From the NCBI RefSeq assembly GCF_028898845.1, contig NZ_CP118574.1, positions 1,116,001-1,180,000 of the forward strand: DNA of 64,000 nt, read 5' to 3'. Origin of the DNA: Streptomyces sp. WZ-12 (GTDB lineage: Bacteria > Actinomycetota > Actinomycetes > Streptomycetales > Streptomycetaceae). Under the pieces are notes generated by a model, which saw only the letters and a program-made list of their open reading frames with translations, searched no databases and had not been told where the DNA came from. Below are positions 4,625-20,285 of the stretch, one piece after another; the stretch's first letter is position 1; every line of letters begins with the position of its first letter. The translations under genes were made by a program, and so were the position numbers.

Positions 4625-4663
4625 GCGGCCGGGGCCGGCCGACGGGCCGGCCCCGGCCGCTCA
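4622..4663. terminator. Perfect bidirectional hairpin embracing two stop codons
   Basis: Positions 4622-4640 are fully complementary to 4645-4663, giving a 19-bp GC-rich stem with loop GACG. The base of the stem is the TGA stop of the plus-strand dehydratase paired with the stop of the minus-strand glycosyltransferase-like gene. It would fold identically in both transcripts. No U-tract is present, as is common for actinomycete terminators. Confidence 0.8.
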
Positions 4664-6469
4664 TACCTCCAGGGCGAAGTGGATGCCCTCGTAGGCGAGC
4701 CATTGGGCGTGGGTGTGCAGCCCGTAGCGGAGGTCGGTGGTGGGTTTCCAACCGGGCGGGGGCGCGGGCCAGTTGAGGGGGTCGGGCGTGGTGCGGGGGG
4801 TGGTCGGTTCCGGTGGGGTAAGGGGGACCGGGCGGACGGCGGCGCGGACCGCCTCGGCCAGTTCGGTGGCGGTCAGGGGGGCGTCCGCCACTCCGGTCAC
4901 CGGGTCCGTGGGCGGGGTGCGGAGCAGCGTGGACAGGGCGGTGACCAGGTCGCGGGTGTGCAGGGGGCGCAGCGTCCCGGTGGGGTCGTCGAGGGTCAGC
5001 GGGTGGCTGCGCAGGGCGTCCCAGACCAGGCGGCCGATGCGCGAGTCGGGCGGGCAGCCGGGACCGTAGAGGTCGCCGAGGCGGAGGGTGAAGTCCGTTG
5101 CGCTGCCCGGGATGTGCAGGGTGAGGGTGGAGGGTTGGTCGAGGGCGGTGAGGTCCAGGAGGGCGGTGGCGGGGCGGTCGGGCGGGAGGTGGGTGAGGAG
5201 GGTGACGGGGTGTCCGGCGTCCCGCAGGCCGCGGACCAGGTGTTCGCCGAGCGGGGTGCCGGCGCCCAGGACGGCGACGTGGGGGTGGTCGGTGCGAGGG
5301 GGGTCGGTCGGGCGGGGGTCGGCCGCGGGCGCGGCGGCCCGGCGGGGCCGGCGGAGGCGCCCGGCCGCCTCGTGGCCCGCCTCCAGCCCGGCCGCGGTGA
5401 TCCGGGCCAACTCGTCCCGCTGTGCGGCGATCCGGTCCTCGCCCTGGGCGTGACTGATGCCTCCGGGGCCGACGGTGGCGAGCGCCTCGGCGAGCACGGC
5501 GGGGTCCGGCGCGGGGTCCGGGGCGGCGTCGTCCCCGGGGGCCGGATCGCAGCGGAGGCCGTCCCTGCGGTGGACGAAGCCCATCGTGAAGGCGGTGAGC
5601 CAGGCGCCCTCGGCCGCCTCGGGGGTGGTGGCTTCGGCCATCCGCACGATGGCCGGTTGCCGTCTTTCCACGCGGATGCCGGAGCCCTCCAGGTACTGCG
5701 CGCAGTCGAGGTGGAGCCAGTGGCCGGAACCGGCCCCCCAAGTCCCTTGGAGCGCGGCCCCGTTCGACGGGTCGTCGACGCGTACCGCGCACTGCGCCAC
5801 GCCCTGCTTGAAGAACGGGAGGACCCGCAGCCCGGTGAGCCGGGCCGCCTCGCGGCCGGGGGCGTCGTGCGGCAGAAAGCACACCGAACGGCGCGGCCCG
5901 CGGAAGGCATTGCCGGAGATGCTGCCGTGGTCCTCGTGTTCGGCGAGGCTGGGCACCGAAACGTACGCCGGGATTTTCTGTGCCCGTAAGTAGCGGTTCA
6001 TGAGGATGTCGTCGGGCCAGCCGTCGAGATGGCGGCGGCCGAAAGCGGCGAATCCGGCGGCGACTTCCCTGGGGAGAATGATGGCCACACAGGGAAAGTA
6101 CTCATTGACCGCGCCGACCCACCGGGCCCCGGCCATGGCGCCGAATCGCACCGCGGCGCCGTTCCGGGAGTCCCAGAGCGCGAAGAGCGCGAGGGCGGCG
6201 TCGGGCATCGCGGAAATCGCCTGCCGGGCGCGGGCGAAGAAGCCATCCGAGAGGATCATGTCGTCCTGGACGACGAGTTGGTGGGTGGCGCTCTCCTCGA
6301 TCGCCTCCCATGCGCACAGCGCGGTCCGCAATACGGACGGTTTACCGGCCGGGTCGGGGTCCATGACGACGCGCAGGGCGCCCGGTGGGGCGGAACTGGC
6401 GAGCCGTTCCGCGGCCGTGCGGCGTTTGGGATGGGTCATCACGGCCCCGCTCAACCGATAACGCGTCAT
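4661..6469 (-). CDS. Glycosyltransferase-like protein fused to a short Rossmann domain (TTA codon)
   Basis: This 602-residue protein has two parts. Residues 1 to about 430 are homologous along their length to the protein at 18832-19965. Both begin with (S)xAVMTHP, followed by DPDPxGxPSxLRTAL, then HxLVVQDD, a DD pair resembling a glycosyltransferase DXD, and later SVPSLAEHE / SVPSVVEHI. The C-terminal 170 residues begin with HVAVLGAGTPLGEHLV, an NAD-binding GxxGxxG strand, and contain RLGDLYGPG and LHTRDL as in sugar epimerases. The stretch that would hold YxxxK is missing, so this domain is probably non-catalytic. A TTA leucine codon at 5987-5989 (NRYLRAQ) suggests bldA control. The ATG follows GGAGGAATTG. 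Sugar transfer is inferred, not proven. Confidence 0.7.
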   Translation of the reverse strand: MTRYRLSGAVMTHPKRRTAAERLASSAPPGALRVVMDPDPAGKPSVLRTALCAWEAIEESATHQLVVQDDMILSDGFFARARQAISAMPDAALALFALWDSRNGAAVRFGAMAGARWVGAVNEYFPCVAIILPREVAAGFAAFGRRHLDGWPDDILMNRYLRAQKIPAYVSVPSLAEHEDHGSISGNAFRGPRRSVCFLPHDAPGREAARLTGLRVLPFFKQGVAQCAVRVDDPSNGAALQGTWGAGSGHWLHLDCAQYLEGSGIRVERRQPAIVRMAEATTPEAAEGAWLTAFTMGFVHRRDGLRCDPAPGDDAAPDPAPDPAVLAEALATVGPGGISHAQGEDRIAAQRDELARITAAGLEAGHEAAGRLRRPRRAAAPAADPRPTDPPRTDHPHVAVLGAGTPLGEHLVRGLRDAGHPVTLLTHLPPDRPATALLDLTALDQPSTLTLHIPGSATDFTLRLGDLYGPGCPPDSRIGRLVWDALRSHPLTLDDPTGTLRPLHTRDLVTALSTLLRTPPTDPVTGVADAPLTATELAEAVRAAVRPVPLTPPEPTTPRTTPDPLNWPAPPPGWKPTTDLRYGLHTHAQWLAYEGIHFALEV

Positions 6470-6680
6470 CAATTCCTCCGGTTCTCCGCTTTTCCGGCCC
6501 GTCGGTCTTTTGCGTCGCAGCCGGTCGATCCGGCCACGTGAATCCGGACAGTACGGCGGCCCGCACACGCCCCGCAAGACTGCCGAAATGGCGCTCTGGC
6601 CCTGCCGATTGGCGCCGGACATGCTGACCGCCGGCCCATGTGCGGTCGGCTCGTGCTCCGTTATGCGAAGAGAGGGATCG

Positions 6681-7811
6681 ATGCCCGGAACGCTGAACGG
6701 AAACAGGAACGTCGGGGGGAACGGCAATGCGAGCGGTAATGCGGGTGCCGGTGCGGGGAGTCCGGTGCCCGGGGTGTTGACGGAATCGGTATCGGCGCGG
6801 CTGGAGAAACTCCGGGATTCCCGGGTGGTGGTGACCGGCGGCGCCGGGCTCGTCGGCAGCCGGCTGGTGCGGCTGTTGCGCCGGGCGGAGGCCGAGGTGA
6901 CGATACTGGACCGGCTGGACGCCTATCCGGACGATGCGCACGCCACGCTGTTCGGGGTCGACGGCCTCGGGGCGGATCTGGTGGTCGGGGACATCTGCGA
7001 CCGGGCCGCGGTGCGCCGGGTGCTGGCCGGCGCCGACTACGTGGTGCACGCCGCCGCCTATGCCGATGTCGCCGCCTGCACCCGCCGGCCCGACATCGCC
7101 TTCCGGGCGAACGTCGAGGGCACCCAGGTGGTGTTGGAGGAGGTCGCGGCCTCCGACGTGCGGCGGCTGGTGCTGATCTCGTCGGCGGCGGTGTACGGGA
7201 ACGGCGAACCCGGTGTACGGGGGCCGCAGGTGTTCCGGGAGGACCAGCGGCTGCTGCCGGTTTCGGTGTACGCCAACTCCAAGCTGTGGGCGGAGCACCA
7301 GACCCGGTTGCTGCTGAGCGGCGCGGGCTCCCCGGAGTACGCGGTGTTGCGGTACTTCTCCGTCTACGGCGATCCGCAGGTGCCCAAGCCGGGCAGCCAC
7401 TCGTGGATGGTCGCCTGGCTGTCGATGCAGGCCCGGCTGGGGCGTCCGATGCGGCTCAACGGCGGCGGGGTGCAGGTGCGGGACCTGGTCCACGTCGAGG
7501 ACGTGGCGGCGGCCACCGCGCTGGCCCTGGTGGAGGAGGGGATGGCGGGGGCGACCGTCAACGTCGGTACGGGCGTGCCGACTTCGGTCCGCGAGGTCGG
7601 GCAGTTGATCGCCCGGCACTTCCCGCGGGTGCACTTCCTCACCACGCCACTGCCGGAGGGCGACCCGCTGGGCGGCTACGCGGACACCGAGCAGTGCCGC
7701 GAACTGCTGCGTTGGACACCGGGGATCGACGTGCGGGCGGGCGTGGAGCGGTATGTGCGCTGGCTGACGAGGACCCCGCACGCGGTGCCTGGTTGGCTGA
7801 GCGAAGGGTGA
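6681..7811 (+). CDS. NAD-dependent sugar epimerase/dehydratase (extended SDR)
   Basis: This 376-residue protein is a nucleotide-sugar epimerase/dehydratase-type extended SDR. After a flexible 45-residue Gly/Asn-rich head come VVVTGGAGLVGSRLV (NAD binding), VVHAAAYADV, the SSAAVYG strand, the catalytic YANSK (Y and K of YxxxK), RYFSVYGDPQ and VHVEDVAAA, all as in GalE/RmlB relatives. It should act on an NDP-sugar or sugar-phosphate in the cytoplasm. It is divergent from the glycosyltransferase-like fusion and heads a coupled run with the 43-codon ORF and the GHMP kinase. The ATG at 6681 has AGAGGGA upstream. The head has low complexity and is unusual for the family. Confidence 0.85.
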   Translation: MPGTLNGNRNVGGNGNASGNAGAGAGSPVPGVLTESVSARLEKLRDSRVVVTGGAGLVGSRLVRLLRRAEAEVTILDRLDAYPDDAHATLFGVDGLGADLVVGDICDRAAVRRVLAGADYVVHAAAYADVAACTRRPDIAFRANVEGTQVVLEEVAASDVRRLVLISSAAVYGNGEPGVRGPQVFREDQRLLPVSVYANSKLWAEHQTRLLLSGAGSPEYAVLRYFSVYGDPQVPKPGSHSWMVAWLSMQARLGRPMRLNGGGVQVRDLVHVEDVAAATALALVEEGMAGATVNVGTGVPTSVREVGQLIARHFPRVHFLTTPLPEGDPLGGYADTEQCRELLRWTPGIDVRAGVERYVRWLTRTPHAVPGWLSEG

Positions 7812-7818
7812 CGTGCGG

Positions 7819-7950
7819 GTGAGTCATGTCGGCTCGCACCTCTGGGAGGTGCGGTTCCGGGCGCTCGGTGATCCGCTGCATCCGCCCACCGCTGTGGTCC
7901 CGGAGATGTTCCGGGAGTGCAGCTCGACCGGAAGGTTCCAGGCCCGATGA
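7819..7950 (+). CDS. Small 43-codon ORF coupled between epimerase and kinase
   Basis: A short frame starts at GTG seven bases after the epimerase stop and ends in ATGA, whose ATG is the kinase start. The AAGGG at 7804-7808 is suitably placed as a ribosome binding site. The predicted peptide contains HLWEVRFRALGDPLHPP and PEMFRECSS. I do not recognise it. It could be a real small protein, a translational coupler, or the remnant of a larger gene. The tight spacing on both sides is the main support. Confidence 0.4.
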   Translation: MSHVGSHLWEVRFRALGDPLHPPTAVVPEMFRECSSTGRFQAR

Positions 7951-9002
7951 GCGGAGCGACGAGGGTGTCGGGGGCACAGGGCACTACGGCGGTGCCGGCC
8001 GCGGGGCAGGCGGTAGTGCCGTGCCGGGCCTGTCTGTCCGGGGAGGACCTGGACTGGTTGGGCGGCCGGTCGGTCAGTCTGGCGCTGGACCTGCCGACGT
8101 CGGTGACGGTCCACCCGCCCGGCGCCGCCGGGCCGGGCGGCGGCGGTGCCGGGGACTGGGCGGGCGAGGTGTGGGCGTTCCTGCGCCGCCGGCTGCCCGG
8201 GCTGGGGCCGCGACCGCCGGCGGTCTCCACGGACAGCCGGGCGCCGGCGGCCAGCGGCCTGTCGTCGTCGACGGCGCTGATCGTGGCGCTGTTCCGGGCG
8301 TTCACCCAGGCCGCGCTGCCGGCCGACGGTGACCCCGGTGGCTGGCCGGTCCCCGCGCGGACGCTGGCCCAGTGGGCGTACGAGTTCGAGTTCGCGCGCT
8401 TCAACGGCGGGGGCATGGACCATCTCGCGGTCATCGCGGGCGGGTTGCTGCTGCTCGACGGGCGGACCACCGGCCTGCCGGAGATCCGGCACCGGGTCGA
8501 CTTCCCCGCGGAGTGGTCCGTCGTGGTGCTCGACTCGGGCACCCGGAAGGACACCCGCGACCACATCCGGTCCGTCCGCGCTCAACTCGCCACCGGGGAC
8601 GCCCGCCTGGCCGCGTACCGGAAGCGGACCGACGCCGCGTCCGGCGCCGTGTGGGAGGCGGTGCGGGGCCGGGACCTGGCCGCCCTGGGCGCGGCGATGA
8701 GCGAGGCGCACAGCGCGATGCGGGACCTGCAACGGATGTCCACGCCGCTGTTGGAGGAGCTGCGGTCGCTGGCGCTGCGCTCCGCCGGCCTGCCGCTGAA
8801 GTTGAGCGGGGCCGGCGGGGGCGGGGCGCTGGTCGGCGTCTGTCCGGCCGTCGAGCGGGCCGAGGTGGTGGCGCGGCTGCGGCGGGCGCTCGGCCCGGTG
8901 CACCCCGCGGCCCGGGTCATCGGGGCCCGGGCCGCGGCGGGCCTGGCTCCTGCGCTCGCCGCGGCACCGGTCCCCAAGAGGCCCGCCCCCGCGCCTAGAT
9001 GA
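7947..9002 (+). CDS. GHMP-family sugar kinase
   Basis: This 351-residue protein is a GHMP kinase (galactokinase / glucuronokinase / heptose kinase group), expected to phosphorylate a sugar at the anomeric carbon with ATP. Motif 1 reads CLSGEDLDWLGGRSVSLAL near residue 33. Motif 2 is PAASGLSSSTALIVAL near residue 100, the ATP phosphate-binding loop. GGGMDHLAVIAGG is the sugar/Asp region, and motif 3 LSGAGGGGALVG is near 290. The ATG overlaps the preceding ORF's stop as ATGA. The kinase ends eight bases inside the convergent radical SAM gene. Next to an epimerase, a role in making an activated sugar is likely. The substrate is unknown and no nucleotidyltransferase is seen in the window. Confidence 0.82.
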   Translation: MSGATRVSGAQGTTAVPAAGQAVVPCRACLSGEDLDWLGGRSVSLALDLPTSVTVHPPGAAGPGGGGAGDWAGEVWAFLRRRLPGLGPRPPAVSTDSRAPAASGLSSSTALIVALFRAFTQAALPADGDPGGWPVPARTLAQWAYEFEFARFNGGGMDHLAVIAGGLLLLDGRTTGLPEIRHRVDFPAEWSVVVLDSGTRKDTRDHIRSVRAQLATGDARLAAYRKRTDAASGAVWEAVRGRDLAALGAAMSEAHSAMRDLQRMSTPLLEELRSLALRSAGLPLKLSGAGGGGALVGVCPAVERAEVVARLRRALGPVHPAARVIGARAAAGLAPALAAAPVPKRPAPAPR

Positions 9003-10107
9003 ACGGGTCGTAGTCCGTGCCGGGCTCCGGCTCGGACACGGTGCCCGCCGCCGCTCCGGCCCCGATGCCGTCGAGTGCGAGGTTGGAGCGGTGGCGGGCG
9101 CAGTGGAAGCGGCAGTCCCGGCTCGGGTCCACGATGCCGCGGTCGGAGGTGCGCCAGATCTCCGGGAGGCGCTCGGTCACCGCGTCACCGATCCGGGCCC
9201 CGGCGTTGCCCCGGTGGTACGAGCAGACGTACACGCCCGACGGGGTCACCAGGGTGCGCAACTCGGCGACCCGGCAGCGGTGGTAGTCCTTCTCCTGGAC
9301 GGGCCCGACGCGGTTGCGCAGGGACGTCAGCGTCGAGGAGTTGACGATCTCGAAGCCGTCGCCGGCGAGCGCGGCGGCCTTCCCGAGCTGCTCCTCCACG
9401 GAGGCGAGGAGGTCGTCCGGCACCTGGATGATGTGGTGTCCGTCGTCGAACATCGCCTTGGTCTCGAAGTAGTCGCAGCCGATGTCGTGGGCGAGTTCGG
9501 CGGCCCGCAGGACCTCGTGGTGGTTGCTGACGACGGTGCCGTCCGGCTCCTGGCGGGTCATGACGAGGAACGAGTAGCCCAGCGCGCCGCGCTTGGCCTC
9601 GGCAAGCAGCCGCATGTTGCCGATGACCTTGTCGAAGACGCTGCGGCCCTTGCGGTCGGGGCGGAAGCGGCGGTACGTGGCGCTGGTGCCGGCGTCCACG
9701 GAGACCCGCACCCAGGAGGCGTAGGCGGCGAGTTCGGTCAGGTTCTGCTTGATCAGGGTGCCGTTGGTGACCACGCCGATCGCGATGCCGGCCTCGCCGA
9801 GGATGCGGAGGACCTGGCGGGTGCCCCGGTGGGCGAGCGGTTCCCCGCCGCCTATCAGGACCACCGCCCGGACCTCCATCTCCACCAGTTCGGCGGCGAG
9901 TTCGGCGAGCCGTTCCGGGGTGAAGCGGCCCTGGTTGAGCAGCTTTCCGCTGATGCACTCCGGGCAGGCCAGATCGCAGAACGTGGTCGGGTCCAGGTCG
10001 ACGACCAGGGGGCCGCTGGAGCGGGTGCCGGTGGCGGCTTCGAGGATCCGGGGCCAGCCGGACGGCTGGTACAGCTTGGACACCAGGTCGAGACGGTCGA
10101 ACGTCAC
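8995..10107 (-). CDS. Radical SAM enzyme with SPASM-like C-terminus
   Basis: This protein is about 370 residues long. The radical SAM signature CDLACPEC gives cysteines 44, 48 and 51 (CX3CX2C), which would bind the 4Fe-4S cluster that cleaves S-adenosylmethionine. The glycine-rich strand VLIGGGEPLAH and the SAM-ribose strand VVTNGTL follow. Late cysteines (CRVAELRTLV...VYVCSYHRG and CRFHCARH) suggest a SPASM or twitch auxiliary cluster. The GTG start was chosen because GGAG precedes it; an ATG at 10179 in the same frame has no ribosome binding site. It follows the sugar ABC operon on the same strand after 157 bases. Such enzymes oxidise, epimerise or dehydrate sugars, cyclitols and peptides. 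The substrate here is unknown. Confidence 0.83.
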   Translation of the reverse strand: MTFDRLDLVSKLYQPSGWPRILEAATGTRSSGPLVVDLDPTTFCDLACPECISGKLLNQGRFTPERLAELAAELVEMEVRAVVLIGGGEPLAHRGTRQVLRILGEAGIAIGVVTNGTLIKQNLTELAAYASWVRVSVDAGTSATYRRFRPDRKGRSVFDKVIGNMRLLAEAKRGALGYSFLVMTRQEPDGTVVSNHHEVLRAAELAHDIGCDYFETKAMFDDGHHIIQVPDDLLASVEEQLGKAAALAGDGFEIVNSSTLTSLRNRVGPVQEKDYHRCRVAELRTLVTPSGVYVCSYHRGNAGARIGDAVTERLPEIWRTSDRGIVDPSRDCRFHCARHRSNLALDGIGAGAAAGTVSEPEPGTDYDPFI

Positions 10108-10264
10108 GTGTTCTCCTGCTTGGTCGGAGGTTCCGTATCCCGGCGGGACGTCGGTCCGCGGGTCGAGCGCGTGCGACATGGCTGTGGGCGGCGGGCCCGT
10201 GGAGGGGGGATCGGGCGGCGGCCGGGCGCGCCTCAACGGCGGCCGACCGCCGGTCTTCGGCGAC

Positions 10265-11113
10265 TCATCCCTTGACCGCGCCGGTGGTCAGGCCGGCGGC
10301 GATGCGCCGTTGGACCAGGGCGAAGAAGACCGCCACCGGGAGCGCGGTGAGGGTGGCGCCGGCCATCAGGCCCCCGTAGTCGGTGCCGAAGCTGGTCTGG
10401 AAGGACATCAGCCAGATGCTGAGGGTCTGTTTGTCGTTGCTGGACAGCAGGACGTAGGCCAGGACGTACTCGTTCCACGCCTGGACCAGCGCGTAGATGG
10501 AGGTCGCCACCAGGCCAGGCGCGAGCAGCGGCAGCACGACCCGGCGGAAGGCGCCCAGGCGGGTGCAGCCGTCGGTCATCGCGGCCTCCTCCAACTCGAC
10601 CGGGACGGCGGCGATGAAGCCGCGCAGCAGCCAGACCGTGAACGGCAGCGTGAAGACGAGGTAGGTGAGGATCACGCCGGCCAGGCTGTCGGTGAGGCCG
10701 GCGTCGCTGAGCAGCAGGTAGACGGGGATGATCAGGCCGGCGAGCGGGATCATCTGGACGCCGAGGATGACCAGGACCAGGGCCTTGCGGCCGGCGAAGG
10801 CGAAGCGGGCCAGCGCGAACGCCGCGAGCGTGCCGATGAGCAGGGAAATCAGCACGGTGCCGGCGCCGATCAGCACGCTGGCGCGGACGTTGGACCAGAA
10901 CGTGGGGGTGGCCAGGGCCCGGCGGAAGTGTTCGAGGGTGAGGTGGTCGGGCCAGAAGTGCGGGGGGTCGGCGTGGATCTCGGTGGCCGGGCGGAAGGCG
11001 GTGAGCAGCATCCAGTAGAGCGGGAAGGCCAGCAGTGCGCTGACGACGAGCCCGAGGGCGTTGGCGGCCGCGCGGTGGCGGCGCGGGGTCCCGGTGCCGG
11101 GGGCGGTGGTCAT
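10265..11113 (-). CDS. Carbohydrate ABC transporter permease (MalG/AraQ type)
   Basis: This 282-residue inner-membrane permease has about six hydrophobic segments (for example LGLVVSALLAFPLYWMLL near the N-terminus). The cytoplasmic EAA loop, ELEEAAMTDGCTRLGAFRRVVLPLL, contacts the ATPase. The family is the MalG/CUT1 type that imports oligosaccharides. The ATG overlaps the stop of the upstream permease as ATGA, so the two are translationally coupled. No ATP-binding subunit is encoded in the operon. In streptomycetes the shared ATPase MsiK often serves such transporters, which is inferred here. Confidence 0.9.
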   Translation of the reverse strand: MTTAPGTGTPRRHRAAANALGLVVSALLAFPLYWMLLTAFRPATEIHADPPHFWPDHLTLEHFRRALATPTFWSNVRASVLIGAGTVLISLLIGTLAAFALARFAFAGRKALVLVILGVQMIPLAGLIIPVYLLLSDAGLTDSLAGVILTYLVFTLPFTVWLLRGFIAAVPVELEEAAMTDGCTRLGAFRRVVLPLLAPGLVATSIYALVQAWNEYVLAYVLLSSNDKQTLSIWLMSFQTSFGTDYGGLMAGATLTALPVAVFFALVQRRIAAGLTTGAVKG

Positions 11114-12063
11114 TCGGCCGCTCCCAGGTGGAGGAGTTGGCGGACGTAGACGACGGCGCCGACCAGCAGCATCAGGACGGTGAGGACGGCGATGGCGGCG
11201 CCGACGCTGTAGCGGTTGACGGCGAAGGACTCGATGAACGAGTAGACGCCCAACAGGTAGTAGTCCTTCTCGGGTTGGCCGCCGCGCATCAGCCAGATCT
11301 GGTTGAAGACCCCGAAGTCCCAGATGGCGCTGAGCGTGGTGACCAGGACTGCGGTCGGTTTGATCACCGGCCAGGTGACGTACCGGAAGAGCTGGCCGGG
11401 GCGGGCGCCGTCGACCAGTGCCGCCTCCTCCAGTTCGGCGGGGACCTGGCTGAGCGCGGCGTGCAGGGTGAGGGCGGCGAACGGGACGGCGCCCCACACC
11501 ACCACGCCGGTGATCACCGCGAAGCCCTGCCAGGGGTCGTCGAACCAGTTGTGCTTGCTGAAGTCCAGCCCCGGCACCAGGCTGAGCAGCCAGTTGACGA
11601 CGCCGTAGTCGGCGTCGGACAGCCAGCGGAAGATGGACGCGGCCACCATGACGGGCATGGCCCAGACGGCCACCAGGACACCGGTCATCGTCGTCCGCAC
11701 CCAGGGCGCCACCCGCCGCATCAGGAGGGCCACCAGCAGCGACAGCGCCATGGTGGCCATCACGCAGGCGACGGTGAACAGGGCGGTGCGGCCGACGACG
11801 GTCCAGAAGAAGCCGTCGGAGAGGATCGAGCGGTAGTTGGCGAGCCCGGCCCAGGGGGGTGCGGCCCCGGAGAACAACTCGCGGCGGGTCATGTCCCGGA
11901 AGGACAGCAGCACCAGGTCGACGAGCGGGTAGCCGAGGACCGCGGCGAGGGCCAGCACGGTCGGGGCGATCAGCAGGTACGGGAGCGCCCGCCGCCGGAG
12001 GGCGCGCCGCCCGCGGGGTGCCCGGCCGGGCCCCGGTGGGCCCGGGTTCTGCACGATCAGCAC
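11110..12063 (-). CDS. Carbohydrate ABC transporter permease (MalF/UgpA type)
   Basis: This 317-residue membrane permease is the partner of the next gene. A basic N-terminus (RAPRGRRALRRRALPY) precedes the first membrane segment LLIAPTVLALAAVLGYPLV. The EAA loop reads ELEEAALVDGARPGQLFRYVTWPVI. It starts at GTG, five bases after the stop of the binding-protein gene, and runs four bases into the MalG-like gene. The protein forms half of the membrane channel for the sugar bound by the upstream lipoprotein. Confidence 0.9.
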   Translation of the reverse strand: MLIVQNPGPPGPGRAPRGRRALRRRALPYLLIAPTVLALAAVLGYPLVDLVLLSFRDMTRRELFSGAAPPWAGLANYRSILSDGFFWTVVGRTALFTVACVMATMALSLLVALLMRRVAPWVRTTMTGVLVAVWAMPVMVAASIFRWLSDADYGVVNWLLSLVPGLDFSKHNWFDDPWQGFAVITGVVVWGAVPFAALTLHAALSQVPAELEEAALVDGARPGQLFRYVTWPVIKPTAVLVTTLSAIWDFGVFNQIWLMRGGQPEKDYYLLGVYSFIESFAVNRYSVGAAIAVLTVLMLLVGAVVYVRQLLHLGAAE

Positions 12064-12068
12064 GGCGG

Positions 12069-13361
12069 TCAGTGCTCGTTGATCACGGCGTCGATGCGGC
12101 GGTCCGCGGCCCGCGCGGCGTCCGCCACCGACTGCTTACCGGTGGCGATGTCCTGGAGCACCTCCGGCAGGACGTTGGACTTCTCAACGGCGCCCCAACC
12201 GGGGGCGGTTGGGGTCACCCAGCCGTGTTCGGCGGCCCGCGCGGCCGGGCCGTTGATGCCGCCGGCGGCCACCTCGTGGAGCTGGGCGGTGTTGTTGGGC
12301 AGGGTGTCGGCGGCGATCAGGCGGCGCTGCGAGGTGCGGTCGGTGAAGAGCCTGATCCAGTCCTGGGCCAGGTCCTGGTTGCCGGACTTGGCGGGGATGG
12401 CCAGGGTGGAGCCGCCCAGGAACGGCGGCAGCGGTTTGCCGGAGGGGCCGGGGAAGGCGAACGTGGCGAACTTCCCGCGCAGCGCGGGGTTTCCGCCCGA
12501 AGTGCTGTCGGTGGCGGCCTTGGCCTCCCAGGTGTTGCCGTAGAACATGCCGACCTTGCCCTGGCCGACGACGGCGGGCTCGTCGCCGTTGTCCTTGGAG
12601 CGGTCGCCCGTGTAGTAGGCGTCCAGGAGGTCCTTCCACTGCGTCAGCCCGGCGACGGAGCGGGGGGCGGAGAGCGCGCCGTGCCAGCGGCCGTCCTTGC
12701 GCACCGCGATGTCGCCGCCGGCGTCCTTGACGAAGGCCATCGCCGCGTACCAGTAGCGGCCCGGCATGTAGAAGGCGGAGAAATTCTTGTCGGCGCTGCC
12801 GAACGTGGCCTTCAATTTGTCGAGGTCGGTGCGGAGTTCGGGATAGCTGCGCGGTGGTTGGTGCACGCCGACCTGGGCGAGGAGGTCGGTGCGGTAGATT
12901 CCGACGCGAGCGCCCACGTAATAGGGCACGCAGTACGTTTTGCCGCCGTCCTGACAGGCGTCGCGGAGGGCCGGGAGCCATTCCTTGGAATGGTCGAATT
13001 TTCCTGGATCCACGGCGCTGAAGGCCCCGTTGACAATGTAATTGGTGGTCTCGCTGTTGCCCATTTCGACTACATCGGGCACTTTCCGGCCGGCCAGCGC
13101 GGCGTCGATCTTCTGGTTCTTGGTCGTCCACTGCTGGTACTGCACCGTGACCTTGATCTTCGGATAGGCCTTCCGGAAGCGGGCGTTGACCTCGGACACC
13201 AGATCGGGCCAGCTCTCCTGGGCGTCCACGGTCAGCCAGACCGTGAGCTCGCCCGTCCGGTTCGTGGCCGCGACCGGTGTGCCGCCGCCACAGCCGGTCA
13301 CCGCGCCGAGCACGGCTATTGCCCCCAGGCCCGCCGTTATCCGGGAGATGCGTTCGGCCAT
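12069..13361 (-). CDS. Sugar-binding lipoprotein of ABC transporter
   Basis: This 430-residue solute-binding protein is family 1 (MalE-like). A short signal peptide ends in the lipobox GAVTGC at about residue 26, so the mature protein should be anchored outside the membrane. The mature start ELTVWLTVDAQESWPDLV is typical for oligosaccharide binders. Aromatic residues that stack on sugars are frequent (FYMPGRYWYAAMAF, YYTGD). The start follows GGAGGAGATC. It opens the operon binding protein - permease - permease, with the radical SAM gene next. The sugar is not readable from the sequence. It may feed or protect against the neighbouring pathway. Confidence 0.9.
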   Translation of the reverse strand: MAERISRITAGLGAIAVLGAVTGCGGGTPVAATNRTGELTVWLTVDAQESWPDLVSEVNARFRKAYPKIKVTVQYQQWTTKNQKIDAALAGRKVPDVVEMGNSETTNYIVNGAFSAVDPGKFDHSKEWLPALRDACQDGGKTYCVPYYVGARVGIYRTDLLAQVGVHQPPRSYPELRTDLDKLKATFGSADKNFSAFYMPGRYWYAAMAFVKDAGGDIAVRKDGRWHGALSAPRSVAGLTQWKDLLDAYYTGDRSKDNGDEPAVVGQGKVGMFYGNTWEAKAATDSTSGGNPALRGKFATFAFPGPSGKPLPPFLGGSTLAIPAKSGNQDLAQDWIRLFTDRTSQRRLIAADTLPNNTAQLHEVAAGGINGPAARAAEHGWVTPTAPGWGAVEKSNVLPEVLQDIATGKQSVADAARAADRRIDAVINEH

Positions 13362-13525
13362 GATCTCCTCCGTCGGGTTGTCGGAACCGGCTGTATCTAC
13401 CCCGGGCACCTCGGCTTTCACCCCGGGAACCCTTTCCGGCCAGAAATTCCGGCGGCCGGAAGTGAGTCATGGCGGAATCCGCGAACGACCACCCGGCAGG
13501 CCGGACCATATACCGATCTTGAGTT

Positions 13526-13546
13526 GGCGTCGGGAAAGCCGACACC
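13526..13546. promoter_or_regulatory. Inverted repeat between the sugar-transport operon and the amidinotransferase
   Basis: GGCGTCGG at 13526-13533 and CCGACACC at 13539-13546 form an 8-5-8 inverted repeat with one mismatch, in the 295-bp divergent region. A TTGACG at 13586-13591 with TCAGTT 17 bases later could be the plus-strand promoter. TATATG-like bases near 13508-13513 could be the minus-strand -10. It may be an operator, but no regulator is encoded beside it. Confidence 0.35.
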
Positions 13547-13656
13547 GGTTTGACGCAAAAGGCGCGCTCCGCCAATGATCGGCTCTTGACGGTGCCGCCC
13601 CCACTGCCTCAGTTTTGCTCGGGTGTCTCCCACGTCCCCTATCGAAGGGTTTGCAC

Positions 13657-14820
13657 GTGACTGAGTACGGCACGACGACCGCAGATCAGGCCACCCGCCC
13701 GGTGAAGGTCAATTCCTGGAACGGCTGGGATCCGCTGCGGCACGTCGTCGTCGGACGCGCCGACAACGCGGTGGTGCAGGCTCCCGAACCCGCGATCCGG
13801 CGGGACTTCCCCGAGGACGGCTTCCCGCTCGGCACCTACGGTCCGATGCCGGCCGACATGACCGCCGAGGCCAACGAGCAACTCGACGGCTTCGCCGAGC
13901 TGTTGCGGCGCCGCGGCATCCGCGTGGACCGGCCCGCGCCCGTCGACTTCAACCAGCGCGTGAGCACCCCGGACTGGACCCAGGAGTCCATGTCCGGCTG
14001 CATGCCGCCCCGGGACCTGCTGCTGACCGTCGGCAACGAGATCCTCGAAGCCACCATGTCCTACCGCAGCCGCTGGTTCGAGTACCTCTGCTACCGGCCG
14101 CTCCTCCAGGAGCTCTTCCGCGCCGACCCGCGGATGCGCTGGGAGGCCGCCCCCAAGCCCCGGCTGACCGACGCCTCCTACCACGCCGGGTTCTGGGACA
14201 CCTACAACACCCTGCCCACCGAGGTGCAGTTGGCCCGGGTGCGCGACTACGACCTGGTGCTGACCGAGGAGGAGCCGCTGTTCGACGCGGCCGACATCGC
14301 GCGCTTCGGCAAGGACCTCTTCGTCCAACTGTCGTTCGTCACCAACCGCAGCGGCTACCAGTGGCTCCGGCGCCACTTCCCCGACCACCGGGTGCACGCG
14401 GTGACCTCCACCAACACCCACCCGCTGCACATCGACGCCACCTGGGTGCCGCTCCGTCCCGGACTGGTGCTGCACTGCGGCGAGCGGCTCGCGGACCCCG
14501 AACTGATGGAGTTCTTCCGGCGCAACGACTGGGAGATCATCGAGGCGGTGCAGCCGGCCAGTTGGGACCACCCGCCGAAGCTGTCGTTCTGCAGCCCGTG
14601 GCTGGCGGGCAACATGCTCAACCTCGACCAGAACACCCTGTGCGTCGAGGAGAAGGAGGTCGCGCTCGCCGACCAACTGGCCGGCTACGGCTTCGAGATC
14701 GTGCCGGTGCCGTTCCGCGCGGTGGGCCCGTTCGGCGGCGGACTGCACTGCGCCACCTTCGACATCGAACGGGACGGGGAACTGGAGGACTACTTCCCGC
14801 ACCGCTACGGACGGTACTGA
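13657..14820 (+). CDS. Glycine amidinotransferase-like enzyme
   Basis: This 387-residue protein belongs to the arginine:glycine amidinotransferase family, which moves the amidino group of arginine onto an amine and leaves ornithine. Signatures include EYGTTT...NSWNGWDPLRHVVVGRA, CMPPRDLLLTVGNEILEA, and the catalytic residues H258 in THPLHIDATW and C365 in GGGLHCATFDI. The nearest known roles are creatine precursor formation, StrB-type inosamine-phosphate amidinotransfer and the toxin enzymes CyrA/SxtG. Length fits all of these. It starts at GTG with GAAGGG upstream and is followed six bases later by a HAD phosphatase. Together they suggest guanidine installation on a phosphorylated intermediate. 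The acceptor is unknown. Confidence 0.85.
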   Translation: MTEYGTTTADQATRPVKVNSWNGWDPLRHVVVGRADNAVVQAPEPAIRRDFPEDGFPLGTYGPMPADMTAEANEQLDGFAELLRRRGIRVDRPAPVDFNQRVSTPDWTQESMSGCMPPRDLLLTVGNEILEATMSYRSRWFEYLCYRPLLQELFRADPRMRWEAAPKPRLTDASYHAGFWDTYNTLPTEVQLARVRDYDLVLTEEEPLFDAADIARFGKDLFVQLSFVTNRSGYQWLRRHFPDHRVHAVTSTNTHPLHIDATWVPLRPGLVLHCGERLADPELMEFFRRNDWEIIEAVQPASWDHPPKLSFCSPWLAGNMLNLDQNTLCVEEKEVALADQLAGYGFEIVPVPFRAVGPFGGGLHCATFDIERDGELEDYFPHRYGRY

Positions 14821-14826
14821 GGCCCG

Positions 14827-15558
14827 GTGTCGGCCCCCACTCCCCCCGGCCGGAGGGCCGTCCGGGGCGTGATCCTCGACTTCTACGGGACGCTGGTGCG
14901 GCTGATCGAACCGCTGCCGCCCAGTCACCGGTCGCTGTTCCTGAGGCGGGGCCTGGCCGAGGCCGCCGACAAGTGGGGCGACCAGTGGGCCGTCGGCCCC
15001 CGGGAGGGCGAGGAGCACGCCGCCCACTCCGTCAGCCAACAGACCTACCATTCCTGGGAGTTGGAGCGACTGCGGAGCCGGGCGCTGTCCTGCGGCGTCC
15101 CCGCGTCCGTGGCCGGCCCGCTCGCCGTCGAGCTGGACCGGGCGATGAAGGACCTGCGCCTGGCGCCGTTCGGCGACGTCCCGGCGGCGCTGGCCGGGCT
15201 GCGCGCCCGGGGCCTGACGGTGGCGGTCTGTTCCAACTGGTACTGGGACCTGGACGGCGCCCTGGCGGACGTCGGACTGGCCGGACTGGTCGATGTCGCG
15301 GTCACCTCGGCCCGGGCCGGCGCCCGCAAACCGCACCCGCTGATCTACCGGACGGTGTTGGAGCGCTGCGGGCTCCGGCCCGAACAGGCCCTGTTCGTCG
15401 GGGACATGTGGGAACCGGACGTGGCGGGGCCGCTGGCCCACGGGATGCGCGCGGTGCACCTGTGGCGGCCGGACCGGGTCGTGGTGGGCGCGGCCCCGCC
15501 GTTGCCGGACGGGGCCGCGCGCATCCCCTCGCTGGCCGCGCTCAGCGCGCTGCTGTGA
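14827..15558 (+). CDS. HAD-superfamily hydrolase (phosphatase-like)
   Basis: This 243-residue haloacid-dehalogenase-type hydrolase begins VILDFYGTLVRLIEP (motif I DxYGT), has the motif II serine in VAVCSNWYWDLD, and the lysine and acidic motifs III/IV ARAGARKPHPLIY and LFVGDMWEPDVAG. Motif I has Asp-Phe-Tyr rather than DxDGT, as seen in several sugar and amino-acid phosphatases of this class. It starts at GTG six bases after the amidinotransferase stop, so the two are probably co-translated. It may remove the phosphate after amidinotransfer, as a phosphatase does in streptomycin assembly; this is inference. Its 3' end overlaps the convergent gene by 17 bases. Confidence 0.8.
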   Translation: MSAPTPPGRRAVRGVILDFYGTLVRLIEPLPPSHRSLFLRRGLAEAADKWGDQWAVGPREGEEHAAHSVSQQTYHSWELERLRSRALSCGVPASVAGPLAVELDRAMKDLRLAPFGDVPAALAGLRARGLTVAVCSNWYWDLDGALADVGLAGLVDVAVTSARAGARKPHPLIYRTVLERCGLRPEQALFVGDMWEPDVAGPLAHGMRAVHLWRPDRVVVGAAPPLPDGAARIPSLAALSALL

Positions 15559-17023
15559 CGGGAGCGGGGGTGGCGGGGCCGGCGGCGGAGAGCCGGTCCA
15601 GGACGTTGCGGGTGACTCGGACGACGCCGGCGTCCAGTTCCCGGCCGCAGACCACCGGCCAGTCGGTGGTCCCGGCCGTGAAGACCGTGCCGCCGGCGGT
15701 GTAGAGCCCCATGGTCGCCGCGCGCGGGCTGGTGATCGCCGCCTCGCGCGCCGGGCAGTTCCAGTGCCCCCATTTCAGGTGGTGGAAGTCGTCGTGCACC
15801 GGATCGAGGAGGTAGATCCCCAGGATGAGGAAGGACTCCGGCGTGCCGTCCACGCCGGTGGCGTGCGCCACGCCGGCCGCGTCCCGGGCGAAGGCCGCGC
15901 CATCGCACTCGTAGCCGATCAGCGGTGTGCCGGCGCCCAGGGCGTCGGCCGGCCCGCCGTCGGCGCCGTCGCGCAGCCCGGTGCCCTCGTACACCCAGTG
16001 CTCGGCGTGCTGGACCTGGTAGCCGTCGCGCGGCCGGTCGCCGGGCCAATCGCCCGGCCACATCCCGCCGTTGCGGAAGCTGACGCCGGTGAGGGCGTTC
16101 TCGGGCTCCCCGACGCCGTCGGGCGGCGCGGGCCACCACTGGTCGGTCGCCGGGAGGTGCGGGTACTCCGTGCCGACGTGGTGGTCGGTGTCGGAGACGA
16201 ACGCGGCGTTGTCGTCCACTGGGTGGACGCGCCACCAGCAGGTGTTGGCGCTGAGGAAGGCCACGTTGCCGCCGCCGGCGACGAACCCCGCGACGTTCTC
16301 GCGCATCGCCGCGCTCCAGTATTCGTCGTGCCCGACGCTGAGCAACAGCCGGTAGGGGGCGAGGAGTTCGGGGTCCTCGTGGAGGTCGAGGTCGGTGCAG
16401 TAGTCGACGTGGTAGCCGCTGCGTTCCAGCCAGGCGATGAACGGGGCGTCCCAGTAGGCGAGGTCGATGACGCCGCCGGGGCGGTGCAGGCTGAGGCGGT
16501 GGCCGCGCGGGCCCTGGGGGCCGGCCTGCTGGTAGACGGGGTTGTCGTAGAGGCTGCCGGCCCGTTGGACGTCGGCCCGGTCGGCGCGGTTGTAGGCGTG
16601 CCGGGTGTAGGTCGATTTCTTGTAGAGGATGTGGGCGCCGGTCGCGCCGGGCCGGGCCGGCCGGGCGACGAAGAACTCCCGCTCGAAACCCTCGATTTCG
16701 GAGTCGCCCAGCAGCGGGACGTGTCGGCCGTCGCCCTCGACGAAATGGGCGAGGTAGATTCCCGGCGGCCAATCGCCGGGCAGGGTGTGGTGGTGGGGCG
16801 GCCAACTCCAGTCCACGGCCGGACAGGCATGGTCCGGGACGCCGTCCGGGTGCGGCGGCGCGGCGGCCCGTTTCCCCGGATAGGGACCGGTCTCCGCCAT
16901 GAACGACAGTTCCCGTCCCAAACGGTAGAAACGGACCCGGAATTCCGCGGCGTCCGTCGACACATGAAAGGTCAGACGCCGACCAACTGTCACGCTCTCA
17001 CGATCCAGATATCCCTCGATCAC
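15542..17023 (-). CDS. N,N-dimethylformamidase-like large subunit
   Basis: This 493-residue protein resembles the beta (large) subunit of N,N-dimethylformamidase, a mononuclear iron amidohydrolase. An N-terminal beta-sandwich (EGYLDRESVTVGRRLTFHVS) is followed by a glutamine-amidotransferase-like core holding LLLSVGHDEYWS, the family hallmark, then GGGNVAFLSANTCWWR. There is no obvious small alpha subunit nearby. Many actinomycete relatives are unassigned. It is the only gene on its strand here and is divergent from the methyltransferase. Near an amidinotransferase it could act on an amide or related C-N bond, which is speculative. Confidence 0.7.
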   Translation of the reverse strand: MIEGYLDRESVTVGRRLTFHVSTDAAEFRVRFYRLGRELSFMAETGPYPGKRAAAPPHPDGVPDHACPAVDWSWPPHHHTLPGDWPPGIYLAHFVEGDGRHVPLLGDSEIEGFEREFFVARPARPGATGAHILYKKSTYTRHAYNRADRADVQRAGSLYDNPVYQQAGPQGPRGHRLSLHRPGGVIDLAYWDAPFIAWLERSGYHVDYCTDLDLHEDPELLAPYRLLLSVGHDEYWSAAMRENVAGFVAGGGNVAFLSANTCWWRVHPVDDNAAFVSDTDHHVGTEYPHLPATDQWWPAPPDGVGEPENALTGVSFRNGGMWPGDWPGDRPRDGYQVQHAEHWVYEGTGLRDGADGGPADALGAGTPLIGYECDGAAFARDAAGVAHATGVDGTPESFLILGIYLLDPVHDDFHHLKWGHWNCPAREAAITSPRAATMGLYTAGGTVFTAGTTDWPVVCGRELDAGVVRVTRNVLDRLSAAGPATPAPVTAAR

Positions 17024-17170
17024 CGCGCCAGGCTAGGCAGGGGAACGAGAACCCGACAACCGATCTTCCGGCCAAGGGGGCGAGTGGTCGAGGAGCAGAG
17101 CAGCGAAGTAGCCGGGTAACCACATTGCCACGCAGCCGCTGGCCGCGTGGTCGCGGAAGGAGAGGGAAAG

Positions 17171-18043
17171 ATGGACAGGGAATTCCGGGTGCGCGAACTC
17201 ATGCTGGGCATCGAGGGGTTGGCGCTGCTGCGCCATGCGTTGGACGCCGACGAGGATTTCCTCAAGGCCCGCCTGGCGGAGATCACGGCCCTCGTGTCCG
17301 GCGAGGGGATGTCGCTGCCGGACGGCGGGACGGCGGTCGGCGAGTTGGACGCGGCGGCCGGCTACGCCTCCTGGGCGGCCCGCTACGACTCGCTGCCCAG
17401 CGCGTACATCGAGGTCGAAGAGCCGCTCGTGCACGGGCTGTTGGACCGCGGCCCGGTGGGCACCGCGCTGGACGCGGCCTGCGGCACCGGGCGGCAGAGC
17501 GCCGCGCTGGCCGCCCGCGGGTACCACACCATCGGCGTCGACCAGTCGCCGGAAATGCTGGCCCGGGCCGCCGACAAGGTGCCCGGGGCGGAATTCCGGC
17601 GCGGTCGTCTGGAAAGCCTTCCGCTCGACGACGAAAGCGTCGATCTGGCGCTCTGCTCGCTGGCCCTGACCCACCTTCCGGACGTCTCCCGCGGGATTGC
17701 CGAACTGGCCCGGGTGGTGCGCCCTGGTGGCCGGATCATCGTCTCCGACCTGCATCCGTTCGTGATCGCCCTCCAGGGGCAATGCGTGTTCGTCGACGGC
17801 AGCGAACGGTTGGCCTTCGTCCGCAATCACGTCCATCTGCCCAGCAGTTATCTCGACGGCTTCCGGGCCGCCGGGCTGACCGTGCGGGAATGCCGCGAAC
17901 CGGTCTTCAACGGCCGGTTGGCACCGGGAGGTTACGAGGAGGCCATCGCGGACGCCGCCCGGGCCGCCTGGGACGGAATGCCGTTGGTGGTCGTCTGGGA
18001 CGTCGAGAAGCCTGCCGGAACCGACCGGGAGCGCGCCGTATGA
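17171..18043 (+). CDS. Class I SAM-dependent methyltransferase
   Basis: This 290-residue enzyme has a distinctive N-terminal region (MDREFRVRELMLGIEGLAL) that also appears to bind a helix bundle. The SAM-binding motif I TALDAACGTGRQSAAL is near residue 102. Motif II TIGVDQSPEMLA and LCSLALTHLPD are typical of UbiE/Coq5-like small-molecule methyltransferases. The ATG at 17171 has GAGAGGGAAAG upstream and was preferred over a GTG eight codons earlier. Its stop overlaps the next gene as ATGA, so it is coupled to the acetyltransferase-like gene. The substrate is likely a metabolite of the cluster, by position only. Confidence 0.8.
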   Translation: MDREFRVRELMLGIEGLALLRHALDADEDFLKARLAEITALVSGEGMSLPDGGTAVGELDAAAGYASWAARYDSLPSAYIEVEEPLVHGLLDRGPVGTALDAACGTGRQSAALAARGYHTIGVDQSPEMLARAADKVPGAEFRRGRLESLPLDDESVDLALCSLALTHLPDVSRGIAELARVVRPGGRIIVSDLHPFVIALQGQCVFVDGSERLAFVRNHVHLPSSYLDGFRAAGLTVRECREPVFNGRLAPGGYEEAIADAARAAWDGMPLVVVWDVEKPAGTDRERAV

Positions 18044-18813
18044 CCCTGCGTTTCGTGCACCATTCCGAGCGCCCGGAATTGTGGGACCGGATCACCGGGG
18101 AATTCGCCGGAGTGGTCCCCGAATACAACCTGCACGGCGACATCAACGCCGGTTTCTGGGAGCGGCTGTTCAGCGACTTCCCCGACCATCAGTTCCTGCT
18201 CCACGACACCGCCACGGACACCGTCCTGGGCACCGGCCGCACCCTGCCCCGCACCTGGGACGGCACCCCCGAGGGTCTGGGCACCGGCCTCGACGCCTCC
18301 ATCGAGGCGGCCTTCCGCGACCACGACGCCGGGGCCGCGCCCGACGCCCTGTGCGCCCTGGGCATCGAGATCGCCCCCGCCCACCAGGGCTGCGGGCACT
18401 CCGCCCGGCTCCTGGCGCACATGGCCGACATGGCCCGCGCGGCCGGCCTCTCCCATGTGATCGTCCCGGTCCGCCCCACCTGGAAGGACCGCTACCCGCT
18501 CGTCCCCATCGACCGCTACGCCACCTGGGCCCGTGCCGACGGCGCCCCGTTCGACCCGTGGATCCGCGCCCAGGTGCGCCAGGGCGGCACCGTCGCCGCG
18601 GCGGTGGCCGAGTCGTCCCGCATCACCGGCACCCTCGCCGAGTGGGAGGCGTGGACCGGGATGTCCTTCCCCGACGACGGCCGCTACGTCTTCCCCGGCG
18701 GCCTCGCCCCGCTCGACATCGACCGCGCCAGCGACCGCGGCGCGTACTGGGAACCCTGCGTCTGGATCACCCACGACGTCCGGTCCAACCCACCGGCGGC
18801 GGCCGGGACTTAG
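18040..18813 (+). CDS. GNAT-like N-acetyltransferase
   Basis: This 257-residue protein resembles a streptomycete GNAT group. It has a central CoA-binding region (LGIEIAPAHQGCGHSARLLAHM, where HQGxGxS is the pyrophosphate loop) and conserved VRPTWKDRYPLVPIDRYATW and DPWIRAQVRQGG. It should transfer an acyl group from acyl-CoA to an amine or hydroxyl. The ATG is inside the stop of the methyltransferase gene (ATGA), so both are made together. It ends 18 bases before the convergent glycosyltransferase-like gene. Confidence 0.72.
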   Translation: MTLRFVHHSERPELWDRITGEFAGVVPEYNLHGDINAGFWERLFSDFPDHQFLLHDTATDTVLGTGRTLPRTWDGTPEGLGTGLDASIEAAFRDHDAGAAPDALCALGIEIAPAHQGCGHSARLLAHMADMARAAGLSHVIVPVRPTWKDRYPLVPIDRYATWARADGAPFDPWIRAQVRQGGTVAAAVAESSRITGTLAEWEAWTGMSFPDDGRYVFPGGLAPLDIDRASDRGAYWEPCVWITHDVRSNPPAAAGT

Positions 18814-18814
18814 G

Positions 18815-18854
18815 GCGTCCCGACCCGGGTCCTAGCGCGTCCCGGCCCGGGTCC
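18815..18854. repeat. 18-bp tandem direct repeat at a convergent gene end
   Basis: The 18-base unit (GCGTCCCRACCCGGGTCC-like, one mismatch) occurs at 18815-18832 and again at 18837-18854. The second copy covers the last codons of the minus-strand gene and the first lies just past its stop. It looks like a local slippage duplication rather than a functional site. Confidence 0.6.
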
Positions 18855-19965
18855 GCGGGACCGGGCCGAGCAGCAGGCCGCCCCGCCGCACCGCGCTGTC
18901 GGCGTACGCGGTCAGCAGCGCGGTGTGTTCCGGGGTCACCTCGGGCCGGCGCTCGGGCGGGAGTCCGGCCGGGCCGACCGTGGACAGCGCGGCGGTCCGG
19001 ACCCGGGCCGCGGCCGCGCCGGCCGGCCCGGAACCCGGTGGCGGCGCCTGGTGCCGGCGGGCGGCGTCCTCGGCCTGGCGGCCCAACAGCAGGCAGTGGA
19101 TCCACAGTTCGTCCGCGAAGGCGGTGCCGAACAGCCGGCCCACCTCCGCCGCGGCGCCCCCGGGCCGGTGCCGTCGCGCCACGTCCCGCACCCGGCCCTC
19201 GGTCAGGCCGGTGTCCGGCAGCGCCTCGGTCCACCGCGGGTGCCGGCGCGGATCGGCGTCGCGCTCGTGCCCCACCGGCCGCAGATAGCCCTCGCCGTAC
19301 CGCATGTACGGCAGCCAGTCCACCTCCTCCAGCACCCAGCCGCGCTCCAGCAGCGGGCGGGCGTCCGCGACCCCGACCGGGCACACCGCGAGCCGAATCC
19401 CCTGCGCCGCATGGCCGTTGATGCTGCTCGTCCCGATGTGTTCGACCACGCTCGGCACCGCCAGCAGCGCGGACCGCCCGGTGGTGCGCAGGAACGCGGC
19501 CATCACCTCGTCGTCGTGGCGCTCGCCGGTCTCCGCGGCGAACGACCGGAACGCGTCCGCCGTGCCCACCGGCAGGCAGATCGCCAGCGTCGGCGCGAAC
19601 TCCTCCGGCACCGCGCGCACCCAGCCGGCGCCGGCCAGCGCCGCCAGGCGGGCCGCGGCGCCGTTCCGGGCGTGCCAGTTCGTGTAGAAGACCAGCGCCT
19701 CGTCCGGGAACCGCGCCACCGATCCGGCCACCAGCGCCAGCAGTTCCGGCGGCCCGGCCACGTCGTCCTGGACGACCAGGTGGTGATCGGCGCCCGCCGC
19801 CCGGGCCGCCCAGGCCACCAACGCGGTGCGCAGCGCCGACGGCGGCCCGTCCGGGTCCGGGTCGCGCGCCAGCCCGTCGAGGCCCAACCGGGCGGCCAGC
19901 GCCGCCGCTTGGGCCTCGCGCACCGGGTGCGTCATCACGGCCGAACTCAGGGACGTGGTGCTCAC
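18832..19965 (-). CDS. Glycosyltransferase-like protein, paralog of the 4661-6469 product
   Basis: This 377-residue protein matches the N-terminal part of the fused glycosyltransferase-like protein. Shared elements are SSAVMTHPVREA at the start, DPDPDGPPSALRTALVAW, HHLVVQDDV, AVPEEFAPTLAICLP, SVVEHIGTSSINGHA, and a tail TAALSTVGPAGLPPERR aligning with the paralog. It has no Rossmann extension. The DD pair after HHLVV resembles a nucleotide-sugar metal site. The GTG at 19965 has GAGGAG upstream. I infer sugar transfer onto a cluster product. The two paralogs bracket the region from 4.66 to 19.97 kb. Confidence 0.65.
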   Translation of the reverse strand: MSTTSLSSAVMTHPVREAQAAALAARLGLDGLARDPDPDGPPSALRTALVAWAARAAGADHHLVVQDDVAGPPELLALVAGSVARFPDEALVFYTNWHARNGAAARLAALAGAGWVRAVPEEFAPTLAICLPVGTADAFRSFAAETGERHDDEVMAAFLRTTGRSALLAVPSVVEHIGTSSINGHAAQGIRLAVCPVGVADARPLLERGWVLEEVDWLPYMRYGEGYLRPVGHERDADPRRHPRWTEALPDTGLTEGRVRDVARRHRPGGAAAEVGRLFGTAFADELWIHCLLLGRQAEDAARRHQAPPPGSGPAGAAAARVRTAALSTVGPAGLPPERRPEVTPEHTALLTAYADSAVRRGGLLLGPVPRTRAGTR

Positions 19966-20285
19966 CGGGCCACCCACTCCTCATGTCGCGCGGTCATCGC
20001 CGTCGGGCCGCCTCATCGTGGCAGATCGCCGCGGCCCGCCCGGCCCGCCCGCGGAGAGTGGCCGAATCCCTACGCCCGCGGCGGGAGTCCGCCCGGCCAC
20101 CGCCACCAGGACCTCGCGCAGCGCCGCCGTGCGCGCGCCGGCCGACCGGCCGTCCCGTAGGCGCGCACGGTACGCGAGGGGCACGGGAGGCCGGTGGCGT
20201 CGCCCATAGCCCCAGGGGGTATGGTCGGCTCGCGAGGAGGCGCCGGGAGCACCGCGCCGACCTGCGCGGAAGGGAGGGGAGCGAG
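19966..20285. other. Intergenic region without a recognised gene
   Basis: These 320 bases separate the glycosyltransferase-like gene from the copper-associated gene. They contain only GC-rich shadow frames. A plus-strand promoter for the DUF6153-like gene should lie near its right end, but I cannot point to convincing -35/-10 boxes. A strong ribosome binding site (GGAAGGGAGGGGAG) sits just before 20286. Confidence 0.4.

Follow-up and report, generated by a model that had tools for sequence, protein, structure and literature searches.

A sparsely distributed, syntenic thirteen-gene block of Streptomyces sp. WZ-12 with a probable role in making a guanidinylated sugar metabolite

The window analysed was a stretch of 64,000 nucleotides from Streptomyces sp. 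WZ-12, starting at 1.116 Mb on contig 1 of a 9.55 Mb genome of two contigs. A block of 13 genes spanning positions 4661-19965 was delineated in it with a codon-usage gene caller and with Pfam, NCBIfam and PDB sequence searches. The block is probably (about 0.6) a self-contained, sparsely distributed cluster making a small glycosylated, guanidinylated sugar metabolite. The original prediction had described a guanidino-sugar or cyclitol island here, lacking polyketide synthase (PKS) and non-ribosomal peptide synthetase (NRPS) genes. The families it named were recovered and the Pfam scan found no PKS or NRPS domain among the block proteins; one gene, an eroded NUDIX stub at 7819-7950, had been overlooked. 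The 13 genes, from left to right, are as follows.

g5, 4661..6442 (-): glycosyltransferase-like protein with a degenerate domain like a short-chain dehydrogenase/reductase (SDR); called on coding score, no Pfam family
g6, 6825..7811 (+): SDR-family nucleoside diphosphate (NDP)-sugar epimerase/dehydratase, GalE-like (PF01370, 3.1e-46)
g7, 7947..9002 (+): GHMP kinase of the galactokinase/mevalonate kinase/heptose kinase type, 351 aa (PF00288, 1.9e-9; PF08544, 7.7e-9)
g8, 8995..10179 (-): radical S-adenosylmethionine (SAM) enzyme with four invariant auxiliary cysteines (PF04055)
g9, 10265..11113 (-): ATP-binding cassette (ABC) importer permease, sugar type (PF00528, 4.2e-19)
g10, 11110..12063 (-): ABC importer permease, sugar type (PF00528, 1e-12)
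g11, 12069..13361 (-): extracellular solute-binding protein (PF13416, 2.4e-33; PF01547, 4.9e-31)
g12, 13657..14820 (+): L-arginine amidinotransferase of AGAT/SxtG type (phmmer against PDB)
g13, 14869..15558 (+): HAD-family hydrolase, presumed phosphatase (PF00702, 3.8e-17)
g14, 15542..16963 (-): DMFA2_C-domain protein, presumed amide hydrolase (PF20254, 7.9e-63)
g15, 17147..18043 (+): SAM-dependent methyltransferase (PF08241, 1.3e-25)
g16, 18040..18813 (+): GNAT-family acetyltransferase, a weak match (PF00583, 20.1 bits; the cut-off is 20.7)
g17, 18832..19965 (-): glycosyltransferase of predicted GT-A fold with an invariant QDD, no Pfam family

Conservation of the block was analysed in 19 non-redundant relatives, no two of which had amidinotransferase genes above 97% DNA identity. 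L114 was merged with L036 and L140 with L039, each pair apparently being one genome, and where a genome was represented by several stretches these counted as one relative. From one set of 80 loci, L032-L039, eight loci with at least 82% identity, were taken and L050-L111 were left out; L040-L049 carry an amidinotransferase without other block genes. All 13 genes were found in 14 of the 19 relatives (L032, L035, L037, L038, L039, L112, L113, L115, L118, L119, L136, L137, L138 and L139), among them S. jumonjinensis (L035), S. inusitatus (L037) and S. celluloflavus (L038). The order was the same in 13 of these; in L039 the four-gene segment g5-g8 is relocated to the far side of g17. The g5 gene of L032 and the g17 gene of L139 run past the available stretch. 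Three relatives (L033, L034, L117) are interrupted by contig ends, L034 stopping inside g17, and the remaining two (L036, L116) have no adjacent g17 orthologue in the stretch covered; g5, g7 and g14 of L116 were matched only in pieces. Since the matches listed include g17-like proteins from S. albospinus and from a contig resembling that of L116, g17 may be displaced there. The search for the same gene set in other Streptomyces, which the original prediction had proposed as a check, thus turned out in its favour.

The ratio of nonsynonymous to synonymous substitution rates (dN/dS, Nei-Gojobori) between the window and eight relatives was 0.12-0.48 over the 13 genes, with dS above 1 in a few cells; this range omits g17 against L036 (0.55), where the sole match is the paralogous g5 locus. 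The pair L112-L136 gave 0.17-0.34. The 13 genes are under purifying selection and, as their order is conserved across species as well, chance juxtaposition is excluded. The flanks are not conserved in the same manner: among 95 flank proteins (flanks of a few kb), no family recurred in over 4 of the 23 sequences compared. The multicopper oxidase g18 is common to the window, L112 and L033. In a test for empty sites, the left neighbour g4 turned up in 2 of 41 relatives and the neighbour on the right, g18, in 14 of them, counting the own genome. A RimK-type ATP-grasp gene at 1240-2169 lies close to the block and beyond its conserved limits.

The amidinotransferase g12 had no match in Pfam or NCBIfam and was identified through its PDB relatives. 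The best scores were obtained with AGAT (2.6e-70, 241 bits) and SxtG (6.5e-70, 239.7 bits), followed by HsvA (4.9e-63, 217 bits) and StrB1 (4.2e-54, 187.6 bits), the last (1bwd) being the lowest-scoring of the seven distinct PDB sequences matched. A search of the own genome with the Pfam ADI family gave a single gene at 2.65 Mb, which is not g12. The Cys and His motifs reported in the original prediction are present (GGGLHCATFD and HPLHIDAT). Alignment with human AGAT (1jdw/1jdx) revealed that g12 retains the catalytic Cys, His and Asp residues and the arginine-binding Arg. Many close homologues of g12 among the matches listed carry the source name 'serine/threonine protein kinase', which looks like a misannotation.

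The loop before the catalytic His, on the acceptor side, reads H-P-L in g12 and N-P-M in human AGAT, where it is associated with glycine as acceptor. It is unlikely, though worth weighing, that g12 amidinates glycine or another amino acid and that the guanidino-acid is coupled to a glycoside by enzymes encoded elsewhere, in the manner of pseudouridimycin. The best score of g12 is indeed with AGAT, and PMC6586884 assigns the amidinotransferase of pseudouridimycin clusters to guanidinoacetate supply; against this, the acceptor loop departs from that of AGAT, no guanidino-acid ligase lies within the block, and the RimK-type gene is outside it. A streptidine-type guanidino-cyclitol cluster is very improbable. 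The kinase, amidinotransferase and phosphatase-type genes do stand together as such a cluster would have them, but among the block proteins the Pfam scan found no family of aminotransferases (pyridoxal phosphate-dependent), of inositol or other cyclitol dehydrogenases, or of cyclases. Because these genes are missing and g12 is distant from StrB1, the cyclitol part of the original prediction fails; its bounded, syntenic set with an amidinotransferase and sugar-type enzymes stands.

The radical SAM enzyme g8 was modelled with a predicted local distance difference test (pLDDT) score of 86.1. The cysteines C68, C72 and C75 and also C302, C319, C356 and C360 are invariant across 35 sequences. The four auxiliary cysteines were read as twitch-type and not as a full SPASM domain, so that of the radical SAM/SPASM assignment made earlier only the first half was retained. 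Together with its CX3CX2C motif, the predicted fold, whose nearest structures were DesII, SkfB and BlsE, is like that of the radical SAM sugar enzymes. The substrates of DesII and of BlsE carry a sugar, and the place of these two enzymes among the top-ranked structural matches favours sugar chemistry for g8, although they are only 17-19% identical to it.

Other homologues of g8 were also observed. A sister subfamily, 51-55% identical, is found at seven loci within the family (L142-L148) with neighbours that were named by eye, except for six L142 proteins: an FMO-like and a GT2-type gene in all seven, GH3 in six, MFS in five and a separate PIG-L in three, to which L142, L143 and L148 add GH1, a regulator of LacI type and an ABC importer for sugars. 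From these gene neighbours the set looks like another conserved sugar cluster. In L141 (9626-12980, G727) a 64% identical homologue stands beside genes resembling, by eye, SAM synthetase and methylthioadenosine phosphorylase; the other block genes are absent there.

The end genes g5 and g17 had been called paralogues, and this was borne out: g17 matches the g5 locus in L036/L114 with 37% identity over 92% of the g17 length. The predicted GT-A fold of g17, along with its DXD-like motif, points to a GT-A glycosyltransferase. The C-terminal SDR-like domain of g5 has no evident YxxxK, as judged by eye in the orthologue alignment, whose row for L036 comes from an erroneous gene call; the g5 orthologue of L035 gave a subthreshold epimerase match. 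The start of g5 may be further upstream, the frame being open to 6727. A further family, glycosyltransferase-like by eye, lies near g5 in four loci (L036:2-328, L038:16-459, L149:2201-2905 and L150:3698-4537).

For the remaining enzymes, the PDB relatives of the kinase g7 were the sugar kinases 4usk and 3k85. Codon-like conservation, judged by eye, suggests that the true start of g6 is probably about 30 bases upstream of 6825. The presumed amide hydrolase g14 matched the PDB N-acetyl-(R)-beta-phenylalanine acylase (1.9e-8) and has H-x-E in common with it. It shares the DMFA2_C domain with this acylase and with dimethylformamidase and differs in being a single 473-aa protein. The iron site of the DMFA2_C amide hydrolases consists of two Tyr and one Glu, according to PMC7686228. 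Assignment of g16 as a streptothricin acetyltransferase was rejected, the match scoring 18.5 bits where the cut-off is 420.

The importer invites a catabolic explanation, in which imported amide- or guanidine-bearing glycosides are degraded or salvaged by the amide hydrolase, kinase, NUDIX, and phosphatase, and nothing is made. The solute-binding protein g11 is MalE-like yet under the cut-off (46.8 bits against 291 for the MalE model), and no importer ATPase gene was found within the block by the Pfam scan. An importer without exporter and the hydrolytic enzymes agree with such an island; the two glycosyltransferase-type proteins, the methyltransferase, the GNAT protein and the catalytically intact amidinotransferase indicate synthesis, and Pfam detected no glycosidase family among the block proteins, which makes degradation a distinctly unlikely account. 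Three observations weigh against the biosynthesis of a guanidinylated sugar metabolite: the sequence of g12 does not fix its amine acceptor, the peptide enzyme SkfB ties with DesII as structural match of g8, and the Pfam scan of the block proteins gave no exporter, regulator, nucleotidyltransferase or aminotransferase.

For the biosynthesis of such a metabolite, the analysis shows gene content and order, purifying selection, the catalytic residues of g12 and the folds predicted for g8 and g17; all substrates, the sequence of reactions and the product we infer as follows. The ABC importer g9-g11, with an ATPase presumably encoded elsewhere, would take up a sugar or glycoside, which would be phosphorylated by g7. 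The epimerase g6, normally together with the NUDIX hydrolase, would work on nucleotide-activated or phosphorylated forms, and g8 would oxidise, epimerise or eliminate on the sugar. The amidino group of arginine would be transferred by g12 to an amine, possibly of a phosphorylated intermediate, which g13 would later cleave. The glycosyltransferases g5 and g17 would link the units, methyl and acyl transfer by g15 and g16 would tailor the product, and g14 may strip an N-acyl group such as a protecting acetyl.

The NUDIX gene is a fourteenth member of the block in the relatives, where it sits between g6 and g7, and is reduced in the window to the following stub.

7819..7950 (+): NUDIX hydrolase gene stub, 43 codons (DNA alignment and translation)

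It was present in all 17 relatives covering this stretch; in 16 of them it is complete or almost so, and in L116 it is split in two. The copy of L036, the only one so checked, matched PF00293 (8.8e-18). Compared with the relatives, the stub has one large gap and one gap of 9 bases, which keep the frame intact and remove the Nudix box. The stop codon of the stub shares bases with the start ATG of g7 (ATGA), so any translational coupling could persist. The own genome has six other NUDIX matches of 34-44% identity, none of which is near enough to be the missing orthologue.

A strongly conserved intergenic element was also found.

6545..6599 (+): non-coding element CGGACAGTACGG-N17-GCAAGACTGCCGAAATGGCGCTCTGG (window letters), between the divergent genes g5 and g6

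Its 12-mer occurs in 16 of 17 aligned sequences, the window included, and is missing from L039. The bare 12-mer is not specific alone, as there are 3 copies in the own genome and, in the 11 relatives searched, 2 to 8 apiece. Across the entire own genome the extended pattern has a single occurrence, and a role as regulon marker was rejected on this count; an operator common to the other two divergent promoters was likewise rejected, the 12-mer being absent from the 18 sequences of each. No Rfam family reached its curated threshold and none lay over the element at E 5; at that level, positions 4000-20900 gave M23 RNA (13431-13503) and mir-1178 (13846-13935), both under curated scores and off the element. 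Folding was no better than that of shuffles: z was -0.9 in the window stretch and 0.2 on the window minus strand, and two stretches of L036 that include part of the element gave -1.2 and -1.3.

The distribution of the block is sparse. Of 295 genomes sampled in the genus, 9 (the own genome among them) had an amidinotransferase of at least 82% identity, and the block was present in all nine, two without adjacent g17 and one cut; more distant amidinotransferases of the genus (such as L011/L120 and L012/L121, 64-65%) stand without it. Radical SAM homologues at E 1e-80 occurred in 2 of 394 class genomes, both of the own genus and the second only 51% identical. At family level 13 of 297 genomes had one, with an identity of at least 78% in 6. 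At E 1e-130 they occurred in 2 of the 70 genomes examined from a second genus belonging to the family, and no amidinotransferase was found at E 1e-150 in 14 genomes of a third. S. clavuligerus has homologues of g17 and g8. In the plasmid collection one record carries the block, the 2.81 Mb record of Streptomyces sp. BHT-5-2, which matches L136 (G847:C2) by its coordinates.

Among the best 120 of 2681 amidinotransferase and of 693 radical SAM homologues, thirteen pairs seemed by eye to come from the same genomes, including Actinomadura rubteroloni, a Catenuloplanes, a Pseudonocardia metagenome-assembled genome and Kitasatospora sp. GP30. These names are suggestive only of a g12-g8 linkage reaching beyond Streptomycetaceae. 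No match named for the first three genera was among the 90 listed for g17, some of them without names, and the glycosyltransferases may therefore be a Streptomycetaceae addition. A bolder and tentative proposal is an actinomycete-wide guanidino-sugar class, in which a radical SAM sugar enzyme and an AGAT-like amidinotransferase acting on an amino sugar are linked also in Actinomadura, Catenuloplanes and Pseudonocardia, with a DMFase-fold metal de-N-acylase and a new GT-A family; the NUDIX loss in single strains might then alter the congener.

Guanidine-bearing saccharides include ribosome-targeting antibiotics. The block is compact and conserved and can be cloned and expressed, which makes the question of its product directly testable. 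The original prediction knew of no cluster with this exact set, and among the papers listed from the open-licence literature none was recognised as describing it; novelty is provisional, since subscription journals and MIBiG were outside the scope of this search.

In the streptidine/streptomycin pathway the amidino group is transferred from arginine, with participation of a kinase and a phosphatase. The present block too has an amidinotransferase, a kinase and a presumed phosphatase; it differs in lacking a cyclitol-making or transaminating family, in having an amidinotransferase nearer to AGAT/SxtG, and in adding a radical SAM enzyme, an importer and an amide hydrolase. The pseudouridimycin cluster (pum/sap), as described in PMC6586884, is likewise a Streptomyces cluster with an amidinotransferase, whereas nothing in the block corresponds to the pseudouridine synthase and the carboxylate-amine ligases encoded there. 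Saskemycin (sas), compared by its description in PMC12637814, differs in its polyagmatine tail and in its carbamoyltransferase, aminotransferase and arginine methyltransferase genes. It resembles the block in bringing together a glycosyltransferase, an acetyltransferase and an amidinotransferase, and it was overlooked by conventional analysis, an example of how clusters without PKS/NRPS signatures can elude standard mining (PMC12637814).

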